From positions 454,952-518,951 of the forward strand of contig FN649740.1 of NCBI GenBank assembly GCA_000310025.1: DNA of 64,000 nucleotides, read 5' to 3'. Both the position numbers and the translations under genes were made by a program. Below the pieces are notes generated by a model. That model had not been told where the DNA came from. It saw nothing but the letters and a program-made list of their open reading frames with translations, and searched no databases. This document shows, piece after piece, positions 561-64,000 of the stretch (position 1 is its first letter; every line of letters begins with the position of its first letter). This DNA comes from Ectocarpus siliculosus (taxonomy: Eukaryota; Sar; Phaeophyceae; Ectocarpales; Ectocarpaceae).

Positions 561-3500
561 TTCGCGGGGAGAAGGCGGTAATCGCTCCGCTCGCGTGCGC
601 TCGTTCCCTCGAGCAGGTAGTGCATCACGTGGAAGCACCGCTCCCCCGGCGCCTGGCCCGTCACTCTGCTCTTCTCCAACAGGTAGTTGGTCACCTTGCC
701 GCCCCTCAGCATACCCTGCACCACACAGAACAGCCAGTTTGCCCACGATTAGACGGGCCATTCGGTAGAGAGCGAGTGGTCTCTTCAGGGCGGAAGCAGC
801 AGCCAGCGCACTGGTGTGTTGTTATCCTGATCGATTGATTGGTCAGTCTGTTCCGCAGCAAGGTCTGCGGTGTGGGGGAGACTTATGTAGATCCTGCTCT
901 TCGGGTGATGAGGTGCTTCAAGAGCGCGTTCGTTTGACGGGTGACGATTTGTTTAACCAGCCCCTTGTTCCAACCAGCGACGTCTATCTGTTACGCCTCC
1001 AAGCACACAGCAGTTCATGACGATCACAATATTCTGCATGTTTTGGGAAACCAAGAGTAAACATCTGTCGTCTTATCAGATGCTTGACATTTTAATACCG
1101 CCTTCCGCGTGTTTTGGGCACGCGGGCCGTCTGTGTCGCTCTCCTCCGTGAGATACGGTACCGCCACCTTGACCCTCTCCGCCTCAACACCAGGACTGCC
1201 AGACGCCAAGCTCTTACACGCGTACCTTGAAGGTGAACTGCAACTCCATGTACTTCCCGAAGCGCGACGAGTTGTCGTTACGGATGGTCTGCGCGTTGCC
1301 GAAAGCCTCGAGGATGGGGTTGGACTCCAAGAGGTGCCTCTGGACGCCCTCCATCGTGGCTTTCTGCTCCCGCCGGCCATGAAGTGGAACCAGAACGTGC
1401 ACGCGCGTGTAAGGAAACCCGTGTGTGGTGCATACAGCAGTAGACTATTGTAAGGCTGCTCCCAAGATGTTCATTTGGGTCGGTGTTCCTGTGTTGTCTT
1501 GTGAACTGATCTTGAATAGTCAAGCGAATTGGTGGAAAATCGCGATCGGTACATGAAAGAAGCTGAAAATATGCAGGTGGCTTTGATTTTCGTGTAGACT
1601 AGGCATGACAAAACAAGTGTCACGAAATGTGTAAAGTACTTGTACTAGTATAAAGGCGACAAAAGCCAACCCGACAGACCCAGATACAAGTCTCTGACAT
1701 CTCTTCTTCGCGTCTGTCGACAGAAAGACGCACAAAAACCGCTTGGAAAGTCGAAATAACTCGTGTCATGCCTGTTCGACCAAGGTTATCCCTCGAACAG
1801 GTAGTTTTTCTGTGAAGTTATGTTTATTTTCTAAAAATGCCGGGGAGTGGTGGAGTGCTGATCAACCTTGAGAACCTCGCTTGTCCCTTTTCGTCGACTT
1901 CACCGCACCTGCGTCTCGCTCGAGGTCCCCACGGTGGTGACGAAGTGCATCAGCTGCTTGGCCGCTTCCGTCTTACCCGCACCGGACTCCCCCGTAACGA
2001 TGACGCACTGGTCCCTGGAGTCGGCTTGCAAGCTCTTGTATGCTTCCGCCGCCACGCGGTAGATGTGCGGGGCCATGAAGTCGCCACCCCCCTGCACAGG
2101 CAGTGTTAAGCAGTGCAAAGCAGTGCCAAGTGGCAGAGCAGAGTAAAGCAGAGCAAAGCAGGGAAGAGAAGAGCAAAGAAAAGCAGAGTAATGCAGAGCA
2201 GAACAGAGCAAAGTAGTAGAGCAGCAGAGTAAAGCAGAGCAAGAAGAAGCAAAGCGAAGCAGCGCGAGAGGTTGGAGGTGCGGGGTTTCTCCGAAGGCTT
2301 GCGCACCGTTTCGTCGGGCGCGACTGCGGCGGCATCGGTGCCGTCCCCGCTACCGGACGGTACGTACCACGCAAGAATCGCTTCGATTTCATGGAATGGC
2401 TACCACCCTGTCGCAGCTAATAGCGGTCAACCGGACGTGTGACAGATAGCTAGCGAAGACAGAGCCGAGAGTAAGCCGCGGGCCTAGGACTGTTGTTCAG
2501 AGCTACAACAACCGCACCGCACCTAACGCGGCCTCCCGCCCAACCGAAACCAGGCACAGCAGTAGCCGCTACGGCCACACTACCGTTACACTGCTGTTAC
2601 AAGCTACCATTATTGTGCTACGCGTTTTCGAAGCACGGCTGGATGGCACAATCCAATAGAGTACCTTTCGGTGGTAGTAGTCCCTGACGCCCGACGTGTA
2701 GATGCCCTTGCCCCCCATGCTGAGCTGCTTGTAGGGATTCACGGCGATCAGCACCGGTCCGATCGAGGTGTACATGTCTCCCTTCTCGCACCTCGTGCGG
2801 AGAACCTGGTGACGGACATCGCGTGGCCCCGAGATGCGCAGCAACGGTACAGTAGCAGAAGGAGGAGCAGGAGTTGTGTGCGTTGTCGGCTAGGGGGAAG
2901 GGCAACGGTGGAAAGAGCGACCGGGTGGCGTAAGCTTATGGGGATATGCAATGTGGAGCAATCATTCTGGTAAGGGCGGGGAATGCTGCCCCGGGAGTGT
3001 TTTTTTTTCAGTATATGGTACGTGGTTTAGAGACCACAGGCAGGCAGGATTCTTGAGGTTCTTCAAAATATCGCTGGGAGGAGAATGCTTGCCATGGTTC
3101 AGCGTATGATAGTCCAGGCCGTGTAAGAACCCCCCTATAAACGTAGGCGTGGTTGTTTTGGACCCGCACGGCCGACACATGCCGCCAGCTTCGCCGGTCG
3201 GTGCGAGACGTGTGTTGTGTTGACTCAATTGTCGGGTGGGCGCAAATTTTCCGCACAACGGAATGGCGTTGAATGAAGCTTTCGGCGTTCAAAAATATCA
3301 TGATCGGGTGTGGGGAGTGGTGGGGGTGTTCTCATGCGCGGAATACGATGAATTGCGTTAAATGAAAGTGAGGAGATGTGACACTTCACACAACCACACC
3401 GTGGGTGATACCCTTAGACTCTAGCGGATGTGGATGACGTCGGGCGCACTCTGCGCGTCCCCCGTCCTCCGTTGACGGGTCAGGTCAGGTCAGCCCTTGT

Positions 3501-6500
3501 CTTCACCATGACACCACAGCAGTATTGTAACGTCAGCGTCGAGCCGTACGAAAACACCTCCCTTCCACTGGGCAAACAACGGCCGAACCGTCGCGGTGAC
3601 CCGCAAACTGGACTGACTTTGTTGGATTTCCACAACAGGGCATGTGCGAGTGGAGAGATAGACAAAAGAGAAAGAGAGAGGGTGTGTGTCAAGAGAGAGG
3701 CGTTTTCGTACAGCCCAACGCTGATGTCACCATACCATTTATGGTAGTGCCGCGCAGCTTGCCGGATGTCTTCCCGCGGCGTGTGTGAGCGCGTGAGTTA
3801 CACCTACGGCAGTAACCTGAATTTGGGTCGATCGTTTGCTTGCTCGCCGTTGGGTTGGAGTGTGTGTTTGCGTGTTCATCAACCAATCACACCAAACCGG
3901 TCTCATTTCATGATGTCTGTCTATGGTTGTAAAAGATGCAAAAGGTGGATGTATGTGCCAGACGCGTCCCTAGGTACTACTGCTGTTCGTGTTCTGTCGT
4001 GCAGCGACGTGGAGGTTGACGTTCGAGGCCCGAAAGTGACTAGGTGTTTTCAGACAAAAAAAGTAGGCCGAGGAAAAAAAAGAAATGGTATTATGCGTAC
4101 AGTCGGTGAGTAAAAAGTAAGTAATAATAGTCGATGGGTATACCAACCGGATTGTCGGGGATCAAAAAGGACAAAAAAATGCTGTTGCGGCCTTGTGCGC
4201 CGCGGTGATGTTGGCCCTCGAGACTTGCAAGAAAATTCGTAAAACCTCATGTTCATGCTGTGCATGGGCCCTGGCCATGTTGCCCAGGGGTCATACCGGG
4301 ATTTGGAGTTGTTCCACTTGCTCACTGGAGGTGGCCGCGAGGCGTTATTCCAGGACTAACTGCTGCTTTTTATTTTTCCTTTTTCTTCACTTTTCTTAGA
4401 TCCCCGGAGACGTCTACTTACAGCCCCTGGTGTGTGTGTTGTTCCTTTTGAACATCTGTCCCGATCTGTTGATTGCTCCTGCGGTGATCGTGTTCAGCAA
4501 ACACTACCGATCAGCTCCTGGGGATAGTTCGAGGATGTTGAGGCAGCAACTCGGATATAACCTCAAGCCTGTGATGTTCTGAAAGGATTCGGTCGATCTG
4601 CAATGGCTGCGGCGATGTATTATTAGCGACGACATCCAAAGCGTTGCCGAGTTCATCAAGACGAGTGTACAAGCTACGCCACAGCTGCTGAGTGTGTGCT
4701 CCGAGACATGCATAATATGTAATCAAGTGATGCCTCCGGAGTGAGCCCTCCAGAGTGGGCTCATAAATGCATACTACTTTATTATATGCATATTTACAAA
4801 AGCATAATTGCTCACTTTGACGAACTTGGGGCAAGTTTCAGTTGTGTTGGCCCTTTTTATCCCCCCGCTCTGTTCGAATGTTTGTAATGTTAACCGTTCA
4901 TATGTATGCATACCAATGGTGTTCACGTCATCCTCGTGATGGGCGCGTTCCGAAACTACAGTAAGCAGCCCCTTTCATGTACGCCTACTTATTTAGGCAT
5001 AGGCATATTCAGGACCTACCCCCTACCTGAAAATAGACTATTCATCTAAAATTTTTAGCCTGAGGCCAAGCGCTGAATGCTGCTTGCCTCCGTCTACTCC
5101 ACACAAGTCAACCTTTGTCTAGTGACGGCAGCCATGCAATCATGCGATGGATGCCGCGCTTATATCTTACTCTTGGAGTACACTTCGTACTCCGTATGCA
5201 GCTCGCCTGGCAGCATTATCCATCGGAAATGGACGCAAATGACGGCGTGTGTGCTCTCTGCTGGTGTCTACTGCTGCTGCTGTACGCCTAATAGTGAAGA
5301 ACAGGAATTCGGTTGATATGCCATTCCTTCCTCTGTTTGTGTTTTCATGGGTGGTCTCCGTGAGAAGCACGGCCACCATGAAAGAAAGCCGCGGCTCCAT
5401 GTCAAGACAGGAGAGAGAGCAGGATGGAAAATTTTGAGCAGCAGCAGGGCTAACAAACTATTTTCTCCTATTTATTTTCTGAGGAAACGCGGAAGGTTTT
5501 CGGTTTTTTAATTTTTTCTGCGAGGAAGGTTGGCAACACGGGTGGTGGATAGATGGATGTTTTCGCTAAAGCGTTGTGGCTGGTGCGCCTTGGGGCCTCA
5601 CGTGTATGGACGTACTGTAAGTTAAATCCGTCCACGGGCAGCGGTGAATTCTTTCTCAACGTCAAACGGAGCATTGAGCATTCTACCAGTAACGATGTTG
5701 ATACTATGCATATGTACCGGAGTTCATGGAATGTTAGAGAGGAGGTTCGATTTCGAAAATCGGCGGTCGGGTCGGGACTCTTTTTTTTTTTCCCCGTGAG
5801 AGGACAGACACCGTGTGCTGGGAAGGAAAAGAATGCCGGAAGTGCAGCGGTCAACTCATGCTCCGCCCCATCTCTCGACTACGAGTGGACAATAGAGGAC
5901 ACAGCAGAAGCAGCGCATATGGATGAAGAGAACACAGCAGTACGAGTAGTTATCGCTGATTGCGGACAGCTCGGCGTTTTCAAGCGGTTCATGCGGACAC
6001 ATCTAACCACGAGCTATAATGTCTCATGTGAGAGGCGCCGTCATGACAGCAAACAGCAAACCGGAAAAATACGGGGGAGATCGGTTGACACATTTCGTCC
6101 GTATTGTGTGCGGTTGCTCTTGACCATGCGTGCGTTCACGCGCGAGGCAAGCCATCCTCCTTGGCCATGAGCAACAGGCAACAGACGTACACTTAACAGC
6201 GACCCCGAACTACAGCAGCAGCAGCGAACATTGACAGACGCATGTTGCATCGGCTATAAAAAAAGTGTCCGTGTGCCGCCGTCGAGCCAAGCCATGAATC
6301 GGAACATCCGAAGCGGGCTTGATGCACACGCCTGGGAAATCACCACCGAGACACCGAGAAGCCTCTCCCGTCCTCCGTTCTCACCTCGACGATGCCCTCA
6401 TTGCTAACGTTCTCGAGCAACACCAAGTCATCCACGCTTCCCCTCGAGTTCACTTTGTCGTAAAACTGAGAATAGTCGATGGCATCCAAAGCCTTCGCCG

Positions 6501-7172: not shown

Positions 7173-7174
<2 letters not shown>

Positions 7175-7233
<59 letters not shown>
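7175..7233. repeat. (GA)n microsatellite
   Basis: About 58 bp of nearly pure GA dinucleotide. Confidence 0.95.
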
Positions 7234-7234
<1 letters not shown>

Positions 7235-8282
7235 CAGATCATGCGGTGAACCAATCAATAGATACGGGAGACAGATCATCATCGCGTGTCCAGGAGAGCA
7301 GCAGCAGCAGAGCAGCAGCAAAGCAGCAGCATCTGCTGGGCGCACTGCAAAGTCTGGTCATGTCCACACTCACAACCTCTAGGCGCGATAGAGGGGAGAC
7401 GAGCCCACCGACAAACAATTAAAAAGGCGATTTCAATGCTGCCGGTCCCGAAGAAAACATACACTTACAGCTTGGGCACACATACATTGTAGAGCAAGTG
7501 TACGCATTTGACGGAAGCACTAAATCTGGTGTGAATTCGAATGTTCGAATCCCAACGGGTCAACGTGATGCAAATATTATTATATTATTCCACATTTTTT
7601 TTTGTCTACCGCAGTAAGGCACGCGCCGACGCTTTTGCGGCAAGGCAGGCTGAGAATCTTAATCTTCTCGCAACGACAAACGAAGAAACGCCTTCAACAA
7701 GACTTCAGAAAAAGATACACTACTGTAAAAACCGGGGGAATTGGAGACTTGGTGTACAAATCATATAATATTATAACAACAGCAGTTACCAGTGTAGAGC
7801 TGCACTGTATTCCCCCTGTGTGGACAAGGACAGCAAGCCCACCCTATCACCCTATTTGCCATTTAGACGACAGGACGTACACATGCCTTCGAGCGGAGTA
7901 CACATGACTATCTCGAACCCATCGAGCATCTTCTAACTTCCACAATAACCTCTTGATCTAATCACATTGCTGCCGCTGCTGTGGGTCATGTTGGCAGCTG
8001 TGTTCCCGGCGTCACCGGTGTTCTATTCCACATCCCGTCGTTTCGTCGGCGGTACGAAAGTTGGCCTGTCTGAGGGACATACCTACAAAGCTGACACAAG
8101 GCACCCGGTACTGGAGATCCCGACAATGAACTACAGTTTTTACACCTCATCTAAATGCATACATACTGCTGTATGCATACGCTCCAGAGAACGAAATCGC
8201 AGACAGCAGACATGGATGGTCTAATAAATAACTAAACCAGAAATTAGAATAATGCGGGATAAAGCGGCTTCGCAACACACGC

Positions 8283-8622: not shown

Positions 8623-9384
8623 CCATCTGGTACAGGAGTGTATCCCACTCGCAAAGTCGTCAACACGGTCTTCTCTCTCGAAGCTGCGTAATGTCTCCAG
8701 CTTTTCTTGCCGCAGTCTGCTACAGCAACAGAGCAGCACAACCACCTAGTTACGACGTACTAACCAACCGGATGAGAAGCACGCCGGGAAAGCAAACGGC
8801 AAGGGCCGTCGGGAAGAAGAGAAACCGAGGGGGGGAGGGGGGGGGGCGACGACGGGAAGAACAGCAGTGCCATCAAAACGCGATGTCGAAATGATTCGAT
8901 ACAAAGTGCTAACCGCTAACGGCTCTCGTCGTGTGAACACACCGCTGCATCGACGACAATTAACAAAACGGAAGTGCAACAGGGGAAGAGAAAGGCGTGT
9001 TCCACCTTCAAAACCTTTGCCAGTCCTCGCAATACCCGTCCGTCGCGTACGGACAACAGAGTATTACGCACATGGACATGCCCGCCCGACTCGCCGTCGC
9101 GGCGGCCCTTGCGTATACCCCACACCAACCCGACTCAGAACTGCTGCCTCTCCCCTGCGCTAAATAAAAACCAAGCCACCGAATCAAACACGCACCTGGC
9201 ATACATAAGATATAGCGGCCGACCACGCCGAGACCAATCTCTTGTCCATACAAGCCCCCCCCCCCCCCTCCTCTGCGAGCGCGGGTGAATCGAGTCCACA
9301 CCCGTAACACGGCCAAGCTGCTCAAACGACGGAAGCAAACCAGACCACCTTCGGCCTTCACGAAACCCACCATGCCTCAACGCC

Positions 9385-11584: not shown

Positions 11585-11608
11585 CACACACACACACACA
11601 CACACACG
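11585..11608. repeat. (CA)n tract
   Basis: Short CA dinucleotide repeat in the intron after the third RNase III exon. Confidence 0.85.
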
Positions 11609-12753: not shown

Positions 12754-12808
<55 letters not shown>

Positions 12809-14321
12809 CAGTAGCAGTAGCAGTAGCAGTAGCAGCCCAGCTGTGAATAGTTGCTTGCGCGAACATTGACTCCCCAAGAGTTCAGCATGCCAAGGGACGT
12901 ACTATAAACACTATTTCAATACGCCTACTGAAAAGACTTCAACACATCCCTTTCGACTGAGGTTATATCTCGAACGGGTAGTCTTTCTGTGAGGTTATGT
13001 TTACTTTCTAAAAAACACTATGTGCGTCTCTTGCAAAGTACGTGTGTTGTCATATTGTGTGCTTTGTCTGTTGACTGGGCGGCTTCGCGAATGGGGCCAT
13101 GTAACTTCTCGACACGTCGGTGGACTAACTCACGGCGGCTCAACATCCGCGAAAGGAATGCGATTCACGGCACAGCAGTGCAACGATTATTCTCGCGCGG
13201 TCAGCACCGAAGCAGTCGCTATGGTTGAAATTCTGAAATTCTAAAATTTTGGCCTCGACGCCTCGACTTCGTAGCGTACTGAAAGTCATTCCATGCTTTA
13301 TGCTCGAGGAGTTTCAAATGAGTCGCCTCGACAAACTGCTTTCCATACTCTGGCCTACATCGATGTAACCTATTTAGCATTCGTGCATGATACTGTACCC
13401 TGCTGTGTCAACGCTTTGAGACATTTCTCGAGGCCCCGCCTCCGGTGGGGGGTGCTTGTTTGGTGTCTCGTGTACAGCATTACCTTCCCAAAATGAACGT
13501 GCTGGCGTCGAATCTATTCTGTGCCCTGCAGGGGGTGTGGGTTGTGGGTGGTATGGACTGACATAGAAACTAACTTTTTTCTCCGATTCACTCTTTGCAA
13601 AGAGTGAGCCAAAGCTCATGACCAACAGCAAGTTCTTATTTCCCCACTCACTGCCGTAAACGCTTCAATAAGCCCCTTTCGGTTTAGGTACATTGCACGT
13701 TATCTCGAACGGGTACTGTAGTCGGACCGCTGTAGTCTGTCGGGGCTTCTATGCATATTGTTAACTTCTAAAAACCGCAGCAGAAAAAAATGCGATAACC
13801 TCCTTGAAGCTGCCCATACAGGTATGCATATGATGCACGTTCCGACTTGCGAACCCTGCCATCTTCTACACCAACACAAGCTTCCGAACAAAGGGAACGG
13901 GACGTGTCTACCCTCCTCCCTCTTTCGAACTGCCGCCAGCATAGCAGCACTAGCGGTCACCAAATTCTGGCATTACTTATAGCAGCATGTCATTCTCTCT
14001 CACCAGATTCAGCTGTCGAGCAAACGACTCGCAAGCGTGGGAGTCGACGAAGCGCTGCCTAGTTGCGGAGAGTTGTCCTGAGGACCTCCTCGAGCCCTTT
14101 GCCGAGCGAAACAGCCAGGAAGAGACCGCCAGCTGGAGGACAGAGTCGCCGAGCCACTCGAGCTCGTCGAAGTCCCCCGACGCTGTGTGGGTCTCGTTGC
14201 AGAACGAGCGATGCGTCAAGGCCGTGAGCAGGAGTCGCCTGTCCCCGAAGCAGTAGCCCAGCGCGTGTTCAACTGCAGGGAGCGAGTGCTGCAAAAACGC
14301 GGCCTCATCTCTCGTAGCCAT
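11658..14321 (-). CDS. Ribonuclease III domain protein
   Basis: Cleaves double-stranded RNA (family knowledge). Exons 14321-14004, 12436-12358, 11868-11658, joined in phase (0, 1). ATG at 14321. The first metal-binding motif is DELEWLGDSVL (residues 52-62: Glu55, Asp59), after ALTHRSF. The second is ILADCFEAVLGAVYVDAGG (Asp126, Glu129). The spacing of 67 residues is close to the usual value, so all four catalytic acids are present. Exon 3 ends in a His/Thr/Pro-rich stretch made by a GTGTGC repeat. No double-stranded RNA-binding domain is evident. The last exon ends in phase 2 and fits the exons at 11193-9385. Target and compartment are unknown. The gene is head to head with the S28 peptidase gene. 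Confidence 0.85.
12755..12834. repeat. (AGC)n/(AGT-AGC)n trinucleotide repeat
   Basis: About 80 bp of pure AGC that grades into alternating AGT-AGC at its right end. It lies in intron 1 of the RNase III gene (12437-14003), so it is not translated in my model. Confidence 0.9.
12951..13015. repeat. Dispersed repeat, copy 2
   Basis: Shares CTCGAACGGGTAGT, TTTCTGTGAGGTTATG and TTTCTAAAAA with copy 1 at 1775-1838, in the same orientation, and lies in an RNase III intron. Confidence 0.65.
13674..13776. repeat. Dispersed repeat, diverged copy 3
   Basis: Keeps CCCTTTCGG, TTATCTCGAACGGGTA and a terminal CTTCTAAAAA, but the middle differs from copies 1 and 2. Confidence 0.45.
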
Positions 14322-17840: not shown

Positions 17841-20800
17841 TCTCGTTGTTATTGTTCTGAGTGACGAAAAGGATGTTCATGGCCTAGTCATTTTCAATTG
17901 TATGCGCATGTTTGTTGTCATTGTACTTGTACATGTTTTCGTTGTTCCCGTTTGTTTTACGGTTAGTGTTGGTGGTGGTGGTGGTGGTGGCCGTTGTCGC
18001 TACATCAACTCGTTTCTCGAGATGTGGTGCCCATCGCTCTACGCGGCCTTGTCACCCCGTGAGATTGCGGTTTTCCCGCTCCTGTGTGGATTGTACCACC
18101 TCCACCGCGGTTCGAGTCGGACTCTACCGCTGTTGTCTTCATGTTGTCGTTTGATGGTTGTTCCAGTACGCCGAGGTGATGCGAGACTCGCTAGCAAGCG
18201 GAGTGGACGGCGTTGGGGGCTCCGAGGAGTGCGCGTCAGCTGTGGAAGCAGGTACGTATTTCCTTCTTGTCGTAGAGGTGAAGGTCACTGCGGAGTGAGT
18301 GTAGGCTACGCCTAGTGTGACGACTCACGCCCCTGGGTGCTCCCGGTGCACACCGTACAGGCACATGGCATTCTGCGGCGCCCCTTGCTCATGGCATGCT
18401 TGGGAAACAGTCTGGGTAGTGCTCGCCCGATCTTGGTCATCTCGTGCGTTCGGTTGGGACTCTGACAACAATCGATGATAATGTCTGGTGCCTAATGGCA
18501 CGGGCTTAGCTTGCCGTGCTTCTTTTCCCCGTTGTTGAGCCTGCGGAGGAGCATCATCCTCGTGCCTACAGAGACGGATCTCGCCCTTGTTGCTACTTTC
18601 GTTATTTGAGCTGTCTGCATCCTATGGCTGGTGCACATGAGGAAAGCGCGGCTCTTCTCTCTCTTGCCTATCTGCCGCGTGCAGGTGCTCTGGTTCGCTA
18701 ATATTTTCTTCCGTTTCGTTTCTTTGCTCTGCAGGCCATGCGTCGATCGGAGAACTATTGCTGACGGAGGAGGGGCAACTAGAGCTAGTGGCGTGAGTCT
18801 GAATTCTGTACGCGCTGCTAACGTGTGATTGCTCGGATGAGGTTGAAAACACGTTTCATTCTTCCTCTGTGGATTTTTTTTTTTTTGGGGGGGGGGGGGT
18901 TGTGGAGTATATTCACGAGGTTTGAACACTGTCTTATTCTTCTGTGGATTTTTCGTGTTCGGAGGGGACGGTTAATGGGGCATCTTCCTGTACCCTGCTG
19001 GCCCGTTGCTCGCGCTGTCACACATGCCGCATACATGATCACATGGTCACATGATGATGCCGCCCGATGCATGCTGGATTTTTAGAGCTTGCGCACGCGG
19101 GGTACATGGGGCGAAAATCCTACAGTACGCAGACGAAACTGTCAAGGCGTCGCTGTGTGCGGGTGCCTACGAAAAAGATGGAGAGCCTACACACTCAGAA
19201 AACACAAATATTTCCGGGAAAACCCGGAATGTTTCGCTTGTAGAATAGCTTTGGTCGTAAGTTGTGATGGTTTCAGAGAAAGCTGGTATTGTAGGAGAGT
19301 GCCGCACTTTCGGCACTTGTTGTTTCAACGTGACATGACACGAAACCGGCACCGCAACCAACGTTCCGCAGAACGTTCCAGCTTTGCGACGCGTCATCTC
19401 TCCAAGACGAGGACGCCAGGGTGCTGTTTGCCGGGGATGGTGTGGTGACGCTGCCCATCCAGGGGAACGACCCTGCCTGCAACGGCATGGTTTGCAACAT
19501 CAGGGCGGTTTGCGAGATCATGACCGATGCCACCAGAGGCTCGGAGGCAAGTCGACTTTGTTTTACGTGCTGAGAGACCAGTTATCTATTTGTTGTTTGT
19601 TGCTATTGTTGTTGTTGTTGTTCATGATGATGATGATGATGATGTTGTCTAGAAACACAATGCAGACCTCGTCCGTGTGTACCTCCGTCGACAGCGGTAG
19701 TGACCTACAACAACCGTCCTTCACAGCCTGATGCAATCCGAAAAAGGTGACACAAGTGAATGAACACATGGCCCATAAAAAAGAGTCTTCCACTGCTGTT
19801 TATTCGCCCCCTTAGTTGCAAATATCTAATGCTGCTTTTGCTCGGACACATTGACGCACACCCAGGTGGAAAGGCTGGCCGCGATTCGAAAAATCCAGAG
19901 ATCCTCCGACGCAGAAGCGATAGAGGAGCCACGATCATCACCCTCACCGTGCGAAGTGTTCCCGCCCAAGGACATGAACACCGCTGCTGGCCGCTATGGT
20001 GGCCGAAGCAGAGAGCGCGGTGCGGGACTGCGGCGGGATTATCCCGGGCAAGAGATGAAACTGCTGGGGAGGTGGGCGATGGATCCTTCGGACCCCGACA
20101 GGGCGTGGCTGTACCAGACGTGCACCGAGTTTGGCTTCTATCAGGCGAGTCTGTTAGTCAGGTCCCCAATACATGTCAAGGGGGCCTAGCGGCCGAAACT
20201 AGCTGCTGCTGTTGTGTCTCTTGATTTTGTTCACGGTGATGTGAGATGGAAGTTGTAGGCGTCTTTTCACCAGCGAAACAAGTAAGAAATACACGATTTT
20301 TGGCTAGCAGATTGAATGGTGTGACATGCTGGCCGGCACGCTGTGTAGCGCAAAATAGACGGCACGTGTTCGTGGCGTCTCGTTCATAGTACGAAGGGGG
20401 GGGGGAAGACTGGAGGGCTTGGCGGGAAGAGCAACCCATGCCCACACCACCAGCAGCATCGCGATCACATTCTGCTTCATGGCCATGTGGTGGGGGAGCA
20501 GCACGACCTCTTGCGTGACGCACAATTTTTTTTTCATGTTTTTCCGCCGCTCCTGTCGGCTGCCTGCTTTTCGGCGTCGTCACCCCTTTGCCCTTTCGCC
20601 GTTTTCCACCGCTCTCTTTGGTGCAGACTTGCGAGGTCGGAACCCGGTGCCCGTTCACTCAGGGCCTTCACACCCTAGATCTTGATTTGGCCATGTGCGA
20701 GGAGGCCTTCGGGATAAGGGCGGAAGAGGTTCGAGAACAGGTTCGGCTCACGAACCTCTTCTACGGAGGGGACCGACCAAGGTACAGTAGTTGCGTCACG

Positions 20801-35426: not shown

Positions 35427-35465
<39 letters not shown>

Positions 35466-36044: not shown

Positions 36045-36244
36045 CGGAGCACCCACCTGCCGCCCTGGCAACAACTGCTGCTGCTGCTGTGTGCTACTTG
36101 TACCCAACTTCTCCACCCCCCTCTCTCTCCCCGCCCCCCTAAACCATAACGCGTGGTTTTGCTCAACCGTTCGTGCAGGAAGCTTCCACTGTGCGGTCTA
36201 CGGTGAGTTTTTGAGAGTGTACTGCTGTGGTGCACACCAACACG
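36045..36244. promoter_or_regulatory. Divergent promoter region, WD-repeat gene / GatA
   Basis: Only 200 bp separate the two start codons on opposite strands. The octamer ACTGCTGT sits at 36221-36228, 16 bp before the GatA ATG. The shared-promoter role is inferred from geometry. Confidence 0.5.
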
Positions 36245-45745: not shown

Positions 45746-48700
45746 ATAGGGAGCGCCCCGGGTTTGACCCATTAACGAGCGCTTTTTAGCTGGGGTTCTG
45801 GCCTGTGAGAACAATCGGTTATCTTGCGATGCTCTGTGGCTTCGCGGGGTCGAACACCGTTATGTAGGTGGCAGCAGCGAGCCTCCTTGACGTCGTCGGT
45901 ACTTGTATTTTGGGGGTTTTAGGGGGAATCAACAGACACGTGGCTATTGTATGAATACGATGCAGCCGGAAGAAAGAATGAAGCTTATCTTGCGTGTTGT
46001 GTCTGTCACGAGTACCGATGGGCGCAACCTTCAACTCTCTTTTGATGATCATACCGTTCGGGGCCTTCTCAGCCACATGTTGAGGTGCCGTTACCATTCA
46101 CGAACGTGGTACATACTTTGCGTACATGACATGTGTTATCATCACATCCGTAACTTGGTATGTAGCAGTTGAGAATGTTGTACCCATTTACTTAAGTCGA
46201 CACACCGGGCTCTGCATGGTGTACTCTATGCGCGCTTTCAGCTTCAGCACTGCATATACATGCTGCTGCTGCAGACTGAGGCAGGAAATGAACAACGAGT
46301 GCTCGGAAAATTCAAATGCAAGTTCCTGAAGTCGAAACTGATGTAGTCTCCTGCCCCGCTTGCGAGCGGTTAGTGACCAACTCTGGGTGTAGCGCATCAG
46401 GCGACCTCCAGTATGGGCGGCAGAATTTTGGGTAGAGATGGGTCCGCGACCTATACTACTGACAGCAGTTTGTGCTGCAAAGAGAGTAGGACGATGGTCT
46501 GCTGAGAATATGGTCAACCACCACCGTGCGCCCCACCAAAAAATACGAACCCAAGGCCGCACGAAAGAAACCGTAGCAACAACACACGCCCTTTGAGAGA
46601 GCAGCCGTTGAACTGCTGTGTGGTAGCAACAGAGTACAGAGAGCAACACACCCACGCGTGACCGAAAAACATTCGGGTTTCTCGGCCCGTTTTGTCCCAT
46701 CCCGGCCGTTTGGCGGGCATTCCACATCCCCTCCAAGAGGCGTTCACGGTTCAACGGACTGCCCCCGCAGCGCACGTCCGAGCGGAAAGTGGAAGAGCCC
46801 AATATACACTGTACATCACAGCCAACGCGCGCATCAGGGCGAGAGAGGCAAACAAGAGCTCTCCCGAGGTCGTGAGCACTGGGAGACGTGATAAAGGAAC
46901 TTCTAACGAAGCTTCAGGTGTGCCAATCGACGATGGGAACGTATGGCAGTTGTTCAATCAAGAGAACGAGAGGAATATTGCTCGCGCCGAACCGACACAC
47001 AGGGGCCCCCGGCGCAGCCAAAATCTCCCTTTCAGCGAGAGCTCTGCTTGCCTTGCCTACAGTCGAACGGTGGTGTCATGCAATACCTGTTCTCGTCCGA
47101 TGCTCTACGGCGAGATAGTGTGGTAGGTGTAGAGCACGTGTATACGTTGTTGCAGGGCAAGCTGTGTGTGAGTGGATTGCTCTCACGCGGCAGCACACCA
47201 CTTCCGAGATCCGAGTTGTCTCCCATCCACGTTACTAAGGGCCGCCATACCCTCAGCAAAGGCCTAACGGCCTTGGCCTTTGAGCCCAGCACTTAGCCTC
47301 TGAGCTTTCCCGTAGTCGGTGATCGGTTGACGGCAGCCTTGGTCCCCCTCACGCTCGTTGGATGTGTTTTGAGCGTTTCACGAGGGAATAGAAGGTTTGT
47401 CCCGTCGTTGTCTGTGTGATTTTTGGCGTACAGCAGTGCCACAGCAGCAGTACAGCGGTGTACATAGACTAGCACTACGAAATCTTATAAGCAGTACATG
47501 CAGCATTGGAAGCATCGATGAAGTCATGAACGTACGGACAGCAGTTTTAGGTTTTCAGGTGTCCGTGCCGACTCCTTACTCTTGTCTACAAGTATGTAGA
47601 CTGCTGTTTGCCGGTCGGTGCATGGGCATCGTAAGGTCGCAGTTCGCAGTGGAGATAAAAAGTGGTATGCTATGTGTTCCGCGCGGGAGATTCCGAAACT
47701 CTTTTCCGCGCAGCTCATTGCACCCGGCAGTTTTCTGTTTTTGATGATGATGATGAACCGTAAACAAGTGTGTCGCCATCCCGTTGATGTTTAACTTAAC
47801 TTGGGGCTGTCCTACTACAGCAGTACGCCCTGCTGAAACGAAACCACGCACATAGCTATCTATATTTTTCCTAGTACAAAAAAAAGATGCGCCGCGTGCT
47901 ACTGCTGTACGTAGACGTGGGCTGTTCAGACACTGCCCCGCCTGCCGAGGGAAGTACAGTTGAAAATAGCACACGACAGAAACAGCAGAACTTTTCACCA
48001 TTCGCAGTTCAGGCGCGTTTCGATGAGGGAGATGATCCGATTCGAATGGGATCTCCCTCTTCGAAATGTTCCTGAATTTCGAATGGTCAGTGGTGCTGTT
48101 TCCGCCGCGCAAGATGTATTTTCCACTGCTGTTGTACTTGTCCTCGGCACGCCGGGCGGGCGGCCACCTCTTGTGCGGAACTGGGCGAGGTCCTGAAGTG
48201 GAGGAGGGGCGCCAATGCAGTTGTAGCGAAGACAGGCAGACAAACAAAAGCGAAAAACATATAGAAGGGCCGGAACAAGCCGAATCCGTGCAATACGAGG
48301 GTCAACAGAAACGAATGGACTGGCCAGTGCTTCAGCGCTTGGACTGCTGCAGTACGCGAGTACTAGTATTTTGTCAAGAATAGTCCAGGTTTCACGCCGA
48401 CAGACCCACAGCAGTAGCAGGACCTCATAAATCCAGGTGCATATGTAGGTTCATTCCAGAGGGAGGAAATAAAGAGAGAGAGAGGGAGGGAGCGGGCCAT
48501 AAAAACTGAAGTTTTTGCCGTTATGGAATAACAGCAGTAGAAACATCAAATTGCAGAGAAGCGGTCGTTGCAGTGGTACAGCAAGAGATGCCTTATTTTC
48601 AGGAGTCCCGCTATCAGCTGCTGTATTTCCGACTTCCGGCGAATCCATACTATGCGGGCACGTGAATGTAGGAGGCTGCGTTTCGATCTCTGTCGTTGTC

Positions 48701-49348
48701 ACTTTGAGTCGTCCGTCCGACTCAGCTTGCTTGTGCCCGAGAGACACGCTGTAAATCTAAGACACCCCACTGCTGTAAAGCCAATTTTGGGTGCGGCGCA
48801 CTGCACCGTTGTGTAGTCTGTCCTCAGAAGAACCCACGCACATGATAGCACGATACCATAGCTACGGCAGTAGAACCACACACCAGCAACGCGAGTTGGT
48901 GTTGCAGGGTTGAACGTGATACAGCAGTGCTGCTACGTATCAAAGCGTGGGGGTGCGGTTAGCTAGATAAAGATTGAGATGGAGGTAGATGCCCTATGTC
49001 CCATTGGTCTTGTGCTCCGAAGGAAGACTCGAAACACCGTTACGCATGACACGTCTTCGACGCCGCACAAATAGATGTGTAGACTGGGCGCCAAAATAGA
49101 TGGGACGAACACACACGTAAACCATAGAAGGACGTGACGGCTACGTTCGCTCCTGCGAGACCGCCCTCCGTGAATGCTTCTTCCACGACCCTGCTGCTTC
49201 CTCTGTTGTTTGTTTTCCGCCCCACCTGGCCCGCGCCACCCCGCTCGTCACTTATCGATATTCCGTTGTTTTCGGTGCATTGTTCGATCGCGCTCGTGGG
49301 GCAGCGGCACGAAGGGACTCGTTCCCGGTGTGGAGTAGGGGCGTTGCC
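45746..49348. other. Intergenic region between GatA and the G-gamma-like gene
   Basis: 3.6 kb with no coding exon I can support. It is the densest zone for the octamer ACAGCAGT/ACTGCTGT: 12 copies between 46462 and 48928, on both strands. A GA-rich patch lies near 48471-48492. Confidence 0.55.
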
Positions 49349-49924
49349 ATGTCGGAGACTACCCTTCAAAAAGTAGAGGCGGAGGTGCAGAAGCTTACGG
49401 CGGAGTTGGAGAGCCTGGAGCGAGCTCAGGTGTGCTGTTCTCTCTTTTTCTGGTAGCTTCGCGTGTGGCAAGAGAAAACAAGTGTTCCGGCCCTTGGCAA
49501 CGATGTGTCATTCCTGAACTCTGAGGTCGATCGTTTTGCGAAGAGACCAACACGTGCAAGGCGCTCAAGAGAGGGAGCAGGAGCAAAGGGGGTGACGGCG
49601 GTGGCACCGTATGGGTGAATTGGGGTGCTGGCTGCGCCGTGTTTCATTTGTTTTATTGGCGGTGTCCAGTTAGCCATACGCTTGTGGTACAAGCGAGCCA
49701 TACGCGTACATGTAGGTCACGGTGTGATTTTTCCGGTATTCGTCGTGCTAGGGGGGTACTGCTCTGCTGTATATGACCAACACCCTATGGACCCACTAGA
49801 TGTGATGTTTGTCACACTGCTGTAGACAAATATTCCCTGGATTGGATCGTACTGCGTGGTGTCGCCGCCCAACTAACCTAACCACCTCCCCGCCCATTCA
49901 CAACCTCGTTGATGTTATTGTGAC

Positions 49925-49968
<44 letters not shown>

Positions 49969-50109
49969 TCACAGATGTATTCAGTGGCCTTCGACAACCT
50001 GTTGGGGTACGTGAGCGAAACCCCCGAACCGTTCTCGTCCGCACCACCGGAGCCTAACTCCTGGCATGCGAATGTCGGAAGCGCCGGTGGCTGTTGCTCG
50101 GTATCGTGA
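49349..50109 (+). CDS. Candidate heterotrimeric G-protein gamma subunit, 71 aa
   Basis: Two exons, 49349-49429 and 49975-50109 (TGA), join at phase 0 with a GT donor and an AG acceptor preceded by a CTG run. Exon 1 is a 27-residue coiled coil (KVEAEVQKLTAELESLERAQ). Exon 2 continues AFDNLLGYV, then a Pro-rich linker with NSW, and ends GGCCSVS. The last four residues form a CaaX prenylation box with a second Cys before it, as in fungal gamma subunits that end CCxxM. Total length, N-terminal coiled coil, helix, Pro-rich linker and prenylated tail all match G-gamma (about 70 aa). Sequence identity is low in this family, so another small prenylated coiled-coil protein is possible. Confidence 0.6.
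49927..49963. repeat. (CTG)n repeat next to a splice acceptor
   Basis: About 12 CTG units that end 11 bp before the AG acceptor of exon 2 of the G-gamma-like gene, taking the place of the usual polypyrimidine tract. Confidence 0.9.
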
Positions 50110-52904
50110 TTGGAGGCCACCTCACAAACCACGTTGGCGAGGGGGTCATGAGTACGGGCGTATCGGGGCTACGCGGGAGATGCGAGAATTGCCGGAAGCT
50201 CCGTTGCAACTTCCGGCCGCTCCACGTCCGTTTGGCCACATTTCTGTGTCAAGGACGGCGTATGTGCGTTTTTTTTGCCGTGCTAGAGTTGGGCAGCTAG
50301 GCAGGAGGAGGTTTGGCGTGGGATTTCACCGATCGAAGGAGCCGGCAGAAAACAAAGTTGATGGTGAGAAGAAAACCGTCAAGTCAAGTCACACAAGGCG
50401 AGCGCGTATCTGTGTTGGCTCACGTAGCCAGGCTGGGTATACCGGCGGCGTTTGAAGGATGATCGGGGTGGTGGTGGTATGTCCTGCTAGCCAACGATGA
50501 GTTTGTGCATTAACGCCCGTTGTAGGAAGGTCCTGTATTGGGTGTTTCTTGTTTTTAGCTTCGCGCACAGAAAGTCACGGCTCTCGTCTCTGGGCCCGAG
50601 GTTAGGATCCAAAAGAGGCCTCGTTGCCTTGTTGTATGTTTTACTTTAAACCGAAGAGTAATGAGTTTCGGTGGCGCTTTTTCTCCACGCACGCCCCTTT
50701 TTTTTTTTTGTTGTTATTCTCCCACTGAGAGGGAGGGGGCGAGTGAAGGGGGAGACGCGGTTGGGTTCGGGCGGGCGCAGAGGCAGGGGCACAGCACAGA
50801 CTGGAAGGGTTCAGAGGTCGATGATCGATGTCGAGGGTTGACCTGGTGCTTGCTTGAGACGGAGTAGAGAGAGAAGAAACACTGAGGAGCGCAGCTTCGC
50901 GATTTTCGTTTCGTAAGCTGTCGAAGTGGCAGGGAAACGTATTGCGTTAGCCCGGCGTGTGTGTGTTATCATTCTCCATCCGACGGTGAAAGAAGGACAA
51001 CCGCCAGAAGCGGCGTACATAAAACGCATTTTGTGTTCGTTATGTTTGGTTTTCGTTTTTTTTCAAGGGTCTTCTCGCCGTAGGAAGTTATTTAGGTACA
51101 TTTCTTTTTTCGCTCCTCTGCGGTTGCAGCTTCTTTTTGGGAAATACGTTGAAAGCAACAGCTGGACGAATGCCTCTCGTACGCGTGTCATACGGAAACT
51201 ACAGCGCAAACTACAAGCGTAGTTTGAGGCAATGCATCTCTGATATCACGCGATGGCGGTGACTCGTCTGTTTCCACCGAAGGCGGTCGTCTGTGGATCG
51301 ACCAGACTTACCAGACTGCTGTTGAGTTGGTCCGACGCTTTGTGCCAGCGACGAGGAAACCGAGTGAGGATGAATGGGAACAAGAGTATACTGCTTCTTC
51401 TGCTGTCGGTTGGGACTCACGTACCTCAAGGCGGTATTGTACGAGAGCTACAGAGGCACCGACAGGAATGAGAAGGAAGTTTCGCACAATGAGCACAAGG
51501 CCGTGCTCACGGTGTCCTCCCACCACAACGAAGCTCCCTCGCGGGTATTGTATGTGTTCCTTTTTGCTTCATCGCTGAGCTTCACGACGTATGTATAGAT
51601 AGTCTGTATCCCGCCGTTGGCACTATGTGCAGTACGGGCACCATGCGTTCGCCACACGTTGCTAAAGGATTCTTGACTAAAAAAGTCATCATGGGAATGA
51701 CCATACATATCGACTGCTGCTGTGAGTGTGCGAGCGTAACTGTAATCCGTCACCAGAGGACCAAGAGGAAAACATGAAAACATAAACATAAACACCAACC
51801 ATCTCGCGTCTGTGTTGCACAGGGGGTGAGGCTCGGGCGTGCAGGGTATCGGACACATTACCCGGCATTTATTGTATGAAGGAGCAGCAGAGAAGGGCAC
51901 CCTCACGAAAACATCCGCCTGTCTCACGCTACGGAGCTAATTTAGATTGTAGCCTCCTATGGTTTTTCGCATGAAGGAAATCGTCAGAAGGTCGCATAGG
52001 TGGGTGGTACTGGCATGTGTCCTGGTCCTGCTCGCGCTGCCCGCCCCAACCATAATTGTGCCGACGGGGGAATAGCAGCCTCCGCTCCGCTGATCGGAAT
52101 CTTTTTAACCAATCGCAGCCCACAGATAATAGGGGGTGCGACGCGGCAAAGGGGGGGGGGGGGGGGGGGGGGNNNNNNNNNNNNNNNNNNNNNNNNNNNN
52201 NNNNNNNNNNNNNNNNNNNNNNNNNNNNGTGGGGGGGGGGGGGGGTTGCCTCTCTCTCGTTCAGGCTCACTTCCGATCATCCAAAATTCAGCAAGGAGGA
52301 CCAAGCGTTCAGCGGAGTTAGTTCTCCCCCCCTTCAGGAGTTGGTTAGTTGACCACTCCACTAAACCTGGCTTGACCCTGCCTGGGCGCCATCGATAAAA
52401 AACAAAAAAACAAGAAAAAACAAAAAAAAAAGACCACCACTCTCCGCCTCTCGCTCCCCTGCTCTTCGGGTTTCGCCAGGTGAGCGTTAGGAGCTGTGGC
52501 ATGGCCGGAGAGCTGACAGCTGTCACTGAATCGGGCTCTAGCTAGTGCTTGGTGAAGTTGTAGGGGCTGGGTGGTTGTGGCGTTCGGTGCTGCGCGGGTG
52601 CGAGTTGAGTGTGTGCGTTTGGAAAAGCCCAGCCGTTAGCGTGTTAGAACCACCCAGTTTTCTCGCCCTGGCCCGACGCAGGACGCACGACTTCGTCTTG
52701 TCCAGCTGGTTGACCGCTACTTGTGTCCTGTTGCCTGCTCTCTGCTGCCGCTGTCCGACGTGTTATTCCTGTGTACCCCTCTTTTCAGCCCAGAGCCCCC
52801 CCCCGCAAGTCTCCCGACTCTCCCTCAGCTGCCTCCCTCAGCGGCTCACCGTCAATCCACACACACACAAAAGCCTTCCGTCTGCTACAAGAGAGACGAC
52901 GGAC
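50110..52904. other. Intergenic region with an assembly gap, upstream of PABP
   Basis: No supported gene. It contains poly-T near 50699-50710, a run of undetermined bases at 52173-52228 with poly-G on both sides, and the CT/CA-rich presumed 5' UTR of the PABP gene (about 52790-52904). Confidence 0.6.
52173..52228. other. Assembly gap (run of N)
   Basis: 56 undetermined bases bordered by poly-G of about 20 bases on the left and 15 on the right. Open frames read across this gap are not real. Confidence 0.98.
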
Positions 52905-60098
<7,194 letters not shown>

Positions 60099-63000
60099 GC
60101 GAACACCAACGAACCGCGCAGTTGGAAGCGTTGCCACCAAGAACACCCGGCGGCGTAGTAGATCGTCTTGCGCCTCGGTCGCTGTTTCGATTGATTCGAG
60201 GGATCCTGGTTCGTTGGAGCGGACTCGTGCTGGTTGAGCTGTCCCCACCAACGCTCGCTTTCGACTACCTCACGTTTTGCCTGTAGGGGTAGTTAAGGTG
60301 TGCTCGTGGCTGTTTTGGTTCAATACCGTCCGAGTGTTTTTGAGTTGTACCAGTGCGAGGGGGGGAGGTCTGCGACAGGGTCAAATATGGAGGAGTCGGA
60401 ACCTTCCCCAGCAAGAGGGTACTGCTGTAGTAGCGCGGGTTGCGGATGGGCTTTAGTGCGCAAGCATGTTCCGTTGGCCACCCCGCTTGTTTTTCGGTCT
60501 ATACGGTACGCGTCTTCTGGTGGTTTTCTTGGTTACTTGTAGGCGTTTTTGCTGTCGTGTTGGCGTAAATTTTGTCGCTCCTTTTGGGGCGTCAAGTTGG
60601 TTGCCATCGTCACAGCACTGACTGCTGCTGTTGCTGCTTTCCCCTACGCTTGGTGCTTTTGCTTCGTTTTGTCTTGTTGGTTGTACCGCTGTCGGCCTTG
60701 TCGTGGGTCGTCTCTTGCTAACGCGGCCGGCCGCGCGTCTTGCTTCCCCCAAACCACGTTGCTGTTGTAGTTCAAAGCTCTTCGCGGGGGTGGAAAAAAA
60801 AAAACTCTTCTCTTCATTGGGTGGTTTGTTGTCGTGCTCGGGCCGCGGCATGGTGTATCACCCCTGTTTTCGAGAGCGAAAGGCTCGAGGCATCTTTCTG
60901 GCGCCACACCGGAAGCACTTCGTTCGCGTTCCTGGATGTCGTGCGTTCGTGATACTGTCGCCGATGCAATGCACACCAAGCAAGGCCGTTGCGCGTTCGC
61001 GCAGCACCTTTGTTTCCTTCCTGCGTCCATGCCATGAGCGTTTCCCTTTCCTTCGTTCGATGGAGTCTCTCATCTTATCATCCTGTGTTCACCCTGTTGT
61101 TCATGTATCCCTACCGTCGAAGCGGCAGTCGTGGGCCCGAGGAGGACTTCGAGTTTCCATGCCAACCGTCCTTCCTGACCGTTGTATGCGTGAAATCACG
61201 CTTTCCTTTGAACGAGTAGTCTTCTAGTCTTCATTGTTTGATTTCCCGCGCTACTACTACTGTTACAAGAACAGACTTAATTTTCGGAGGCATATTCATG
61301 TTCACAGATGGATGGCGGAAAGACAACAGCAGTCATTATTAGGACCTGTGTTACCCTGGCTGGTGAATCCAGCATTCATTGTATACATACCGAAAGGAAG
61401 GTGCAGCATCACAACACCACCGACGTCGACAGGAACGGGATGACCAAAAAGACGGAAGACAGAGAAGGTGTATGGATGTCAGATGTCCGAGTGCAGCCTT
61501 ACGACTGATTTGCTAACCCTGATTACACTCCTCCGTACCCTCATGGAGACATTCGCTCCGGATTTAGATACGTACGTGGTTGTGTGTGCCCTGTTTTTGT
61601 TGTTGAGTTGTTGTTTCTCTCACATTAATTAGCTCTATAATCCACAAAAATGTGGAGCCCGTGGTCGCAAAACCCGGCACATACGAGGCCCCGTTGAAAC
61701 AAGACAAGAATAGAGTACAAACCACTCGGACAAAGAAAACAAAATGATAAAAAGAAAAGAACAGCTACCGCACCGACCGGTCGAGAAAAGGAGCCCTAGG
61801 AAACCGATCAAAATAAAACAAGACAAAAATAAAGGCAGAAATAAAAAGGGAAAAAGGAGCGCTTTTCCCACACCCGCCTAAAAAATCAAAGGGTATCGTA
61901 CCAGCATCAGGCACTACGCACCAGGGCATGGGAGTACGGCATGTTGTGTACGTTGGGGACTCCTCGCTCACTATTACTTACTGCTGCTGTCCCGTTGTTC
62001 TTCTTGCACGAGGTATGCATACAGGCGGTAGATGAAATATGACAGAAGGGCCTCTTGGTCCACAGATAAGTCACGTCGAGTTGGCTTAGCGTTATTCACA
62101 ACAGTTTATTTTGATGCTCATGTGGTTGCGCAACACCCCGCTGCCCTCTTTTGCTTCCCCCGTTATTTCTCCCGCCCGAACACCACCCCGATGACCGTTA
62201 GCTGGTTAGCTGCCTATTATTGTGCCGAACCTTTTTTTTCTGTAATTCACGCGCGACACCTCACCCCGGTTGAAAAACGCCACAACGTTTTGAACCCCCC
62301 GGCCATCGAGAGATAATCCTGCCACCAGGATCACTTGGGCGTCAGGGGAACGCTGTCGCTGTAGTGGGACTACGCGGGGTGACGATGACGAAGTAGGCAG
62401 AGATTTTTCTTTTGGGTGTGCAGGGTATCGCTTGATCGGCGACTTGCCGTCGAAATCAGCGCTGAGCGTGGTTTTGGTTTGCGTGGCGCCAAAAGTCAAA
62501 CTGCAAACGGCGGTTAGCCTCTTGGTCACTTTTTCTAGGTGGCGGCGGGTAGAGAGGGCCCGAGGCCATGTCGTGGCTGGAGGGATCGCCGAAGCACCAG
62601 GGATCCAAGGCCAAGCCAGCACCGGGATCGAGTGCAAGAGGTTTGTGGTCGTCCTCTACGACCAGGTGCGAGACGACAACGAGCACCACCGCTCTGTTGC
62701 TGTGGAAGGATTAGCAACGTGTTCAATTCCTCTGCTGCTGCTTCTGCAACCCGTAGTTACAGAGAGGCCCTTATAGCTGAGCCTCCTTGCTCTCTCCGTT
62801 TTCTCTGTCTGATGGAGCCTTGCACGGAGCATTGCATGCGAACGGACTTATCTAGCGGCTGCTGCTTCGGCCGTTGCGTTTGTGGCCTTGCGACGCCGGT
62901 TGTATCTGACGAGGAAGGTGCATATACATTTTACATGCACACAGCCAGCACTACTTGTAAGCTCACTTGTCTCTCAACCCCTACTTTGAATTCCCCGAGA

Positions 63001-64000
63001 CGCGTTGATGGCCAAGAGGATGACACGGCTCTCCTACCATTGCCCCCGATCTAAACGACGTACAACGATCGACATCTAGTCTATGGTGATATGCACACAG
63101 CTGTACTACCTTTTTTTGCAGGCCCATGCGTCGCACGATGACGCGTGCCGGATGGCCGGTTAAAGTATATGCTTCGGGATTCGAAAAGTGCGTACCGTCT
63201 CTCACGACCTGTACCCTTGAGTCCAGCGGTGCCACACCTACTCTCACGTTTTTGCGAACACCCGCTTTGCAAGTTCTAGTACATATGGTTGCGGCCAAGC
63301 CTGCGTGGGTGCTGCTGCGCGCTAGCCGCGTACGCGTGCCACACAGCAGCGTGCCACATTCTGTGATTGGTCCTGTGATCCTGTGATACGAGGTGCTCAG
63401 AGAGCCAGTATCGCTGCGCAGCACTAAGGATGACTGGAATTGACACATTTTTCAACACAATTTTTCTTCGCGGGTCGTTCAAAAAAAATTACGAGTTTTT
63501 CAGTCCTTCGTTTATCTGAAAACAGATTTCCCACGGGTGCGCTTATACCTCAAAGGTACTTTTCATCATGAGAAGCACCACCGTGTCACGCCTGAGCCAT
63601 GCCGGCCAATGAAAGCACCTCAAATACATATATCTGATGGTGACCCTACCTGTCTGTTTGGTTCCCAATACGAGAAAATACACCTGTTTTGTGCAGGTAC
63701 TGCTGTATGTGTACGTTGGCGCGTAAACCCATTGGGACTGGTAGGGAAGTCGACCGGTAGATGTCGACGTGCTGCTGTGTATCCTTTCGGCGTGCTCTCT
63801 TCCTGCTTCCCTCTCGGGCGGCATGCATGAAACAAGAACATTTATCATTTCCAAAACCAAAACACGGCCGGTCTGATGAGAACGACTTAGAGGCATGTGT
63901 GTTTTCGGTCTCATGTCACACCACAAATTGTCAATACACATGCCCTCCTCCAACGTTTTGCCTTCATCCATGGCATCGGCAAAGAGCACAACTGACAAGA
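60099..64000. other. Right-hand region, no convincing gene
   Basis: Begins with the PABP 3' UTR. At 62541-62665 (+) there is a possible orphan exon (acceptor TTTTTCTAG, donor CAG-GTGCGA) with a frame reading HVVAGGIAEAPGIQGQ and ECKRFVVVLYDQ. I could not link it to other exons. Three ACAGCAGT/ACTGCTGT octamers occur, near 60421, 61325 and 63703. Confidence 0.45.

Follow-up and report, generated by a model that had tools for sequence, protein, structure and literature searches.

HIP1, the highly iterated octamer of cyanobacteria, is a perfect palindrome, and the canonical footprint of Tc1/mariner elements of the Sleeping Beauty type is TAC(A/T)GTA. Both resemble an octamer that we followed in a 64-kb stretch of the Ectocarpus siliculosus genome (contig FN649740.1, positions 454,952 to 518,951; "the window"), which reads ACAGCAGT or, on the other strand, ACTGCTGT. 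The octamer is very probably the palindrome ACWGT (W, A or T) with its middle CWG duplicated once in tandem (A-CAG-CAG-T). Like HIP1, it is sharply defined and spread over the whole genome in unrelated flanks, but it is a duplicated half-site found mostly in non-coding DNA, whereas HIP1 is palindromic. In its best form, TACWGTA, the unduplicated target is the same sequence as the Tc1/mariner footprint; the present word, however, has CWG twice and does not need the TA flanks.

Short tandem duplications are known from further systems. NuwaI elements of the PHIS (PIF/Harbinger-ISL2EU-Spy) superfamily have a target-site duplication 5'-CWG-3' (PMC4482050). A 3-bp CWG duplication is found here too, but no convincing element with terminal inverted repeats was seen between the CWG copies in the loci sampled (well under 1% of the genome). 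When a 4-nt Top2 overhang is filled in and non-homologous end joining follows, de novo duplications arise (AATT to AATTAATT; signature ID17), that is, short tandem duplications from a filled-in staggered break, as proposed below for the octamer (PMC11477040). Those duplications measure 2-4 bp, whereas the octamer holds 3 bp, always of the same sequence, and recurs tens of thousands of times in the genome. Complementary 3' overhangs, when filled in, likewise yield tandem duplications, the overhangs in that work being at least 43 bases long (PMC8355091).

Exact matching located 38 copies in the window, 22 on the + strand and 16 on the - strand, between 1007 and 63706. An earlier note on this stretch had reached the same total by eye; of the ten coordinates it listed, five are exact and five are displaced by 1-9 bases. 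The 19-fold excess it gave holds against a random octamer and shrinks to 2-2.5-fold against high-order Markov models, because such models absorb the motif itself. On both strands together, 2.5, 5.2, 15.3 and 19.5 copies are expected at Markov orders 2, 3, 5 and 6. Nor is the enrichment confined to this contig: the genome (189.46 Mb, 492 contigs) contains 26,003 + 25,924 = 51,927 copies, compared with 3,704 + 3,543 = 7,247 of the reversed word, and the density in the window is about twice that of the genome. In the same genome at least 150 EsV-1-7 domains were scored (880 candidates), with none in any of 14 control genomes, a content that marks a brown alga, probably of the Ectocarpales. Overall, the octamer is an unusual feature that truly exists across the genome; we regard it most likely as a scar left by mutation rather than as a code word.

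The wider sample consisted of the window and 25 further 10-kb loci, 20 of them on one contig (C27), with 115 octamer copies in all; two loci (L021, L032) read entirely as N. Coding segments were predicted with a purpose-built, crude 3-periodic hidden Markov model seeded with exons guessed from Pfam matches and codon bias. The model and all counts based on it leave out L021, L032 and L038 (at least 5,000 N each, octamer-free), and five of the 115 copies fell between the coding and non-coding thresholds and belong to neither class. In the predicted non-coding DNA (222 kb), a(XYZ)2b was compared with aXYZb for each context. A(CAG)2T relative to ACAGT gave 106/366 = 0.29, against an average of 0.022 over 270 contexts and 0.0496 for the runner-up; this ratio is 13-fold above the mean of the other contexts. 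The window alone gave 38/84 = 0.45 (mean 0.023, next best 0.083), and with preferred flanks the non-coding ratio of duplicated to unduplicated ACAGT was 60/119. Genome-wide, 24,902 YACAGCAGTR (reversed control 1,684) stand against 71,821 YACAGTR (reversed control 77,207), a ratio of 0.35; the control pair YTCAGCAGAR and YTCAGAR (1,413 and 57,514) gave 0.025, and the plain word TCAGCAGA was counted 5,349 times. Roughly a quarter of YACWGTR sites in the genome thus carry the duplication. By extrapolation from the octamer counts, with assembly gaps ignored, about 39,000-46,000 sites would be scarred.

Other comparisons single out the same context. Among exact two-copy 3-bp tandem repeats of the sample A.CAG.T leads with 115 (next 30), and over duplication lengths of 2 to 6 it has a z of 34.2, the next values being 9.5 (a dinucleotide context) and, for trinucleotides, 4.5. 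In the window the (CAG)2 core has flanks A..T 38 times, A..A 8, T..T 5, and C..T and A..G 3 times each, while flanks that extend or border a CAG run are counted separately (G..C 84, A..C 27, G..T 13, G..A 13). As these context ratios demonstrate, the octamer is not accounted for by a plain CAG-repeat background, which the earlier note had asked to be removed. The word ACAGCTGT differs in one W and so contains no duplication; its 14 copies in non-coding DNA, counted over both strands, match the background (16.4 expected). Beyond the core, position -1 favours pyrimidines (T49 C28 A24 G13) and position +1 purines (A47 G35 T18 C14; n=114), and T before occurs together with A after 30 times where about 20 are expected (101 copies; these, the GCAGCAGT, ACAGCAGC and triple-unit counts below refer to the window and 20 loci, 242 kb). 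Such Y...R flanks point to a palindromic target. The duplicated fraction depends on the flanks, from 0.44 for T..G and 0.35 for T..A down to 0.07 for T..C. No non-simple 10-mer of the sample is more enriched than TACAGCAGTA; a 10-bp product of that sequence was considered and rejected, the flanking T and A being far less constant than the core. The palindrome GTAC is also found duplicated, 28 times where 7.3 are expected (z 5.6 in non-coding DNA), and is perhaps a second, weaker scar type.

The product is mostly precise. Partial copies (CAG.AG, CA.CAG) and additions of one or two bases are at the level of the eight other flank contexts compared, a set that leaves out 7 of 15 contexts, namely those extending CAG or with G before or C after. 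From n=2 to n=3, A(CAG)nT drops from 101 to 11. Since ACAGCAGT no longer contains ACWGT, the duplication destroys its own target, and the word mostly stops at two copies. Single-substitution neighbours, palindromes excluded, show 109 transitions at the inner six positions (72.3 expected) and 114 transversions (112.8 expected), the pattern that exact originals would acquire as they age by mutation. End-position transitions are high (GCAGCAGT 48 versus 22.9; ACAGCAGC 87 versus 36.0), because both words border CAG runs.

The copies in the window are listed below (position, strand, description); all were located by exact match, the one at 48125 also by alignment.

1007..1014, +, putative A-CAG-CAG-T scar
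1434..1441, +, putative scar, T before, A after
2556..2563, +, putative scar
2590..2597, -, putative scar
3516..3523, +, putative scar
3979..3986, -, putative scar
5934..5941, +, putative scar
7779..7786, +, putative scar
8165..8172, -, putative scar
8861..8868, +, putative scar
13172..13179, +, putative scar
19792..19799, -, putative scar
22613..22620, +, putative scar
23732..23739, +, putative scar
32227..32234, -, putative scar, first of a pair within a 62-bp tandem repeat
32289..32296, -, putative scar, second of that pair, hence not an event of its own
36221..36228, -, putative scar
38774..38781, +, putative scar, near predicted amidase exons
39507..39514, +, putative scar, near predicted amidase exons
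46462..46469, +, putative scar, dense stretch
46612..46619, -, putative scar, dense stretch
47430..47437, +, putative scar, dense stretch
47538..47545, +, putative scar, dense stretch
47600..47607, -, putative scar, dense stretch
47817..47824, +, putative scar, dense stretch
47901..47908, -, putative scar, dense stretch
48125..48132, -, putative scar, dense stretch, inverted-repeat partner with ACTGT
48408..48415, +, putative scar, dense stretch
48531..48538, +, putative scar, dense stretch
48769..48776, -, putative scar, dense stretch
48921..48928, +, putative scar, dense stretch
49816..49823, -, putative scar, dense stretch
51315..51322, -, putative scar, dense stretch
53296..53303, +, putative scar
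53834..53841, +, putative scar
60421..60428, -, putative scar
61326..61333, +, putative scar
63699..63706, -, putative scar
46301..51400, dense stretch (post hoc borders), duplication at 14 of 17 ACWGT-type sites

Outside this stretch, 24 of the window's remaining 105 sites of this type are scarred; both the dense region (46.3-51.4 kb) and its borders were picked post hoc, and in the bin 44,001-48,000, taken whole, 7 sites are scarred and 12 intact. Scar-scar neighbours number 36 versus 24.6 after shuffling (sd 4.0; 10 of 2000 shuffles as high), tandem copies included; the tandem copies in the counts are four in L028 and two at 32227/32289. A search of 46.3-49.9 kb against the genome, with very common words skipped, gave six short partial matches in four places, none over an octamer. 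Flanks differ from copy to copy, as the earlier note had stated, with no consensus beyond -1/+1 bar a weak A at -11 and +14. Membership in a longer repeat is accordingly rejected. A diverged inverted repeat, ~73% identical, lies at 47935-48157 inside the dense stretch, and at L028:6611-7002 a 98-bp tandem repeat carries the octamer in four successive units.

Sequences related to octamer-bearing copies provide a further view. The copy at L018:2269 reads GGTACAGCAGTGAAGG, while an 87% identical copy (L018:25-205) reads GGAACAG---TCAAGG, a 3-bp gap that pairs ACAGCAGT with ACAGT. Together with the core and flank contexts and the mirrored flanks, this copy suggests that the word is ACWGT with CWG duplicated. 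The family of L018:2269 (411 candidates, 40 scored, 28 of those identical over the full query, query included) is young and repeated: one event multiplied. At L028:1150 the octamer sits on the left end of a ~180-bp miniature inverted-repeat transposable element (MITE; 334 candidates, 40 scored), which looks pogo/Tc1-like. Its ends were read in L028, L037 and, further, at 13 left and 7 right ends, giving 15 left and 9 right ends. The junction is ACAGT in 6 of 15 left ends (L037, L044, L046, L047, L053, L054) and ACAGCAGT in 3 of 15 (L028, L043, L048), a share biased toward scarred copies by their choice as best matches to a scar-carrying query. ACTGT is present in 4 of 9 right ends (L028, L057, L058, L061) and the exact octamer in none. 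From these end states ACWGT looks original and the scar derived. Likewise, the inverted-repeat partner of the window copy at 48125 (within 47935-48076) has ACTGT at the octamer position. Duplication at a formerly repeat-free site is thus seen in the related copies with ACAGT, which are few. Where the octamer is in every copy (L018:7836/9974, the L028 tandem and window 32227/32289) the comparison is uninformative on duplication, and the copy at 53834 has only a weak, unclear match. The MITE lies at L028:1154-1330 and L037:4475-4664 (-), with further ends in L042-L061; its inverted ends are like CAGT(A/G)G(A/G)GGTCCCTGTTTAGTGCCGG, with TA on both sides in some copies, and the left ends vary in a few bases just inside the terminal CAG.

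Predicted non-coding DNA contains 106 octamers where 14.7 are expected at Markov order 3, and predicted coding DNA 4 where 2.6 are expected. The absence from exons claimed by the earlier note holds for the window (0 of 38 in predicted coding segments) but not for the window and the 25 loci together (4 of 115). This deficit arises mostly because targets are scarce in coding DNA: unduplicated ACAGT occurs 23 times in 49.6 kb of coding and 366 times in 222 kb of non-coding sequence, and the scarred shares, 4/27 and 106/472, do not differ significantly (p=0.48). The four coding copies may be background, since other CAG contexts are also high there (GCAGT 0.14, TCAGT 0.11) and one of the four has a substitution-type relative. 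Relative to flanking same-strand predicted coding segments, 30 copies are sense and 26 antisense (56 of 115 assignable), and the orientation of neighbouring copies is random (49 different, 44 same). An RNA or splicing element, one of the functions put forward in the earlier note, is disfavoured by this lack of strand bias, while its suggestion of a footprint left by a mutational or insertion process is supported. A paired or inverted-repeat arrangement was also rejected, no orientation or spacing being favoured among the 115 copies, and no tRNA or Rfam matches were found in the window.

Other features of the window include an amidase gene piece at 38210-38734 (+), a piece of a poly(A)-binding-type protein with RRM and MLLE domains at 57286-60283 (+), a WD40 match below the cut-off at 34926-36197 (-) and a myosin-head-like exon, recognized by eye from the translation, at 1930-2109 (-). 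Local inverted and tandem copies of CCTCAATAGCGGTA / TACCGCTATTGAGG occupy 43786-43932. The word TATGCATA is over-represented (14 versus 2.5 at Markov order 5), and a related sequence adjoins the octamer at 8165.

The CWG duplication in ACWGT is thus mostly precise, palindrome-dependent and genome-wide. We propose, with a probability of about 0.75, that most of the octamers are scars of a sequence-specific cut with a 3-nt stagger, followed by fill-in and joining. The starting sequence would be the palindrome ACWGT, best as YACWGTR (Y, pyrimidine; R, purine). An enzyme would cut around CWG, the breaks in the two strands being offset by three bases (as with A^CWGT on both), leaving a 3-nt overhang, and after fill-in and joining of the ends the site would read A-CWG-CWG-T. 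Either the cut ends would simply be rejoined, or a mobile element would insert with a 3-bp target-site duplication and later leave precisely. The overhang may have either polarity, since fill-in of long 3' overhangs also duplicates (PMC8355091). Among the entries listed by the literature searches there was no description of this scar; the listed text matches to the octamer looked like primers or unrelated work, and CAGCAGTA with Ectocarpus returned nothing.

Who would make the cut is a matter of two variants. A free site-specific nuclease or topoisomerase-like activity, cutting at ACWGT with a 3-nt stagger and filled in without any insertion, is a possibility that we put forward tentatively. 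The exact +3 product is its main support, no element was found inside scars of the sample loci, and there is precedent in the 4-nt Top2 overhangs (PMC11477040) and the 3' overhang duplications (PMC8355091; overhangs of at least 43 bases). A nuclear enzyme that cuts tens of thousands of sites would be costly, however, and the coding-DNA hits it predicts amount to 4 of 27, which may be background. It also counts against such a nuclease that we know of no enzyme of this specificity. The other variant, a NuwaI-like element of the PIF/Harbinger clan that would insert at ACWGT with a CWG target-site duplication and then excise exactly, appears rather unlikely to us, and a transposase-type integrase that targets CWG, as the NuwaI one does, is a correspondingly doubtful candidate for the enzyme. 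For this variant speak the shared duplication (PMC4482050), 75 DDE_Tnp_4 matches in the genome (one of 14 control genomes also matches) and local clustering as local hopping would give, although the clustering figures include tandem copies and a region picked post hoc. Against it, no element was found between CWG copies in the sample loci, the excision would have to be unusually exact to leave no residual element bases, and NuwaI is reported only from animals (PMC4482050). On a broader wording, which we hold with some reserve, an activity so far undescribed would cut YA^CWGTR with a 3-nt stagger and mark about a quarter of its targets with essentially one product, far more strongly in certain stretches than elsewhere; it may belong to an integrase that has been domesticated or to a mobile element whose departure leaves no trace.

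Explanations without such a cut fare less well. A DNA-binding protein (a transcription factor, an insulator protein or a chromatin protein) could recognize the octamer, with selection preserving the site, as the sharp motif, its mostly non-coding and orientation-free placement and its local clustering would allow. We consider this improbable: a binding site predicts neither the alternation of ACAGT with ACAGCAGT in related copies nor the tie between the octamer halves and the 13-fold duplication ratio, and the substitution neighbours look like neutral decay. Hardly more weight can be given to an excision footprint of a Tc1/mariner- or pogo-like element with CAG termini and TA duplications, or to recutting of its ends by the transposase. 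MITEs of this kind are present, with the scar on the left end in 3 of the 15 read, TACAGCAGTA is the top non-simple 10-mer, and 11,912 Mariner-Tc1 copies are annotated in Ectocarpus (PMC12477816). However, T before combined with A after is limited to 31 of 114 scars; TA is therefore preferred without belonging to the product, and flanking TA on both sides is not the rule. If both overhangs were joined directly, the result would be CAGCTG, whose count is raised slightly at best (14 versus a marginal 10.2). Phaeovirus integration was rejected, as it takes place at CC dinucleotides (PMC13236599). Very improbable, finally, is polymerase slippage or a CAG-microsatellite background. CAG repeats are common here and GCAGCAGT and ACAGCAGC are raised, but other flanks have non-coding ratios of 0.019-0.066 against 0.29, and A(CAG)nT falls sharply at three units. 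A flank-independent excess of CAG runs beyond two units was not found, and the context dependence contradicts it.

Several observations weigh against a single staggered cut at ACWGT. Measured against margin products for N(CAG)2N, the excess shrinks to 106 versus 41.4 in non-coding DNA and to 101 versus 23.0 in the window and 20 loci. A(CAG)3T (11; ratio 0.03 versus 0-0.003 in the other contexts compared) and A.CAG.CTG.T (14; 0.038 versus 0.008-0.024) are raised, which is not predicted by one exact product, and break repair usually yields a range of products, site deletions being invisible here. The related copies form a small and uneven set: in the L018:2269 pair one substitution also stands on each side of the gap, the alignment gap of the 48125 pair is 6 bases and not 3, and 6 of 15 MITE left ends (L042, L045, L049, L050, L051, L052) fit neither state, L042 having ACAGT with an extra TAG and L051 ACAGCAGT a few bases outside the junction. 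The octamer at L018:6987, in predicted coding DNA, is probably no scar; a 96% identical copy reads ACGGTGGT, an ungapped match with three substitutions. Neither an enzyme nor a convincing element was found: a search for an inverted-repeat element within ACWG...CWGT gave 0 exact and two weak matches in the sample loci (well under 1% of the genome). Moreover, the Harbinger duplications reported for Ectocarpus are ANT and TNA, not CWG (PMC12477816).

If the proposed cut is real, the octamer would be a genome-wide record of enzyme cutting in the DNA of a complex multicellular alga, and strains could be compared scar by scar, each scar being either present or absent. Over-represented octamers in genomes of this kind would then be read as mutation products and not as regulatory code. 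It would also point to an unrecognised transposon group outside animals or to a new kind of cutting activity.

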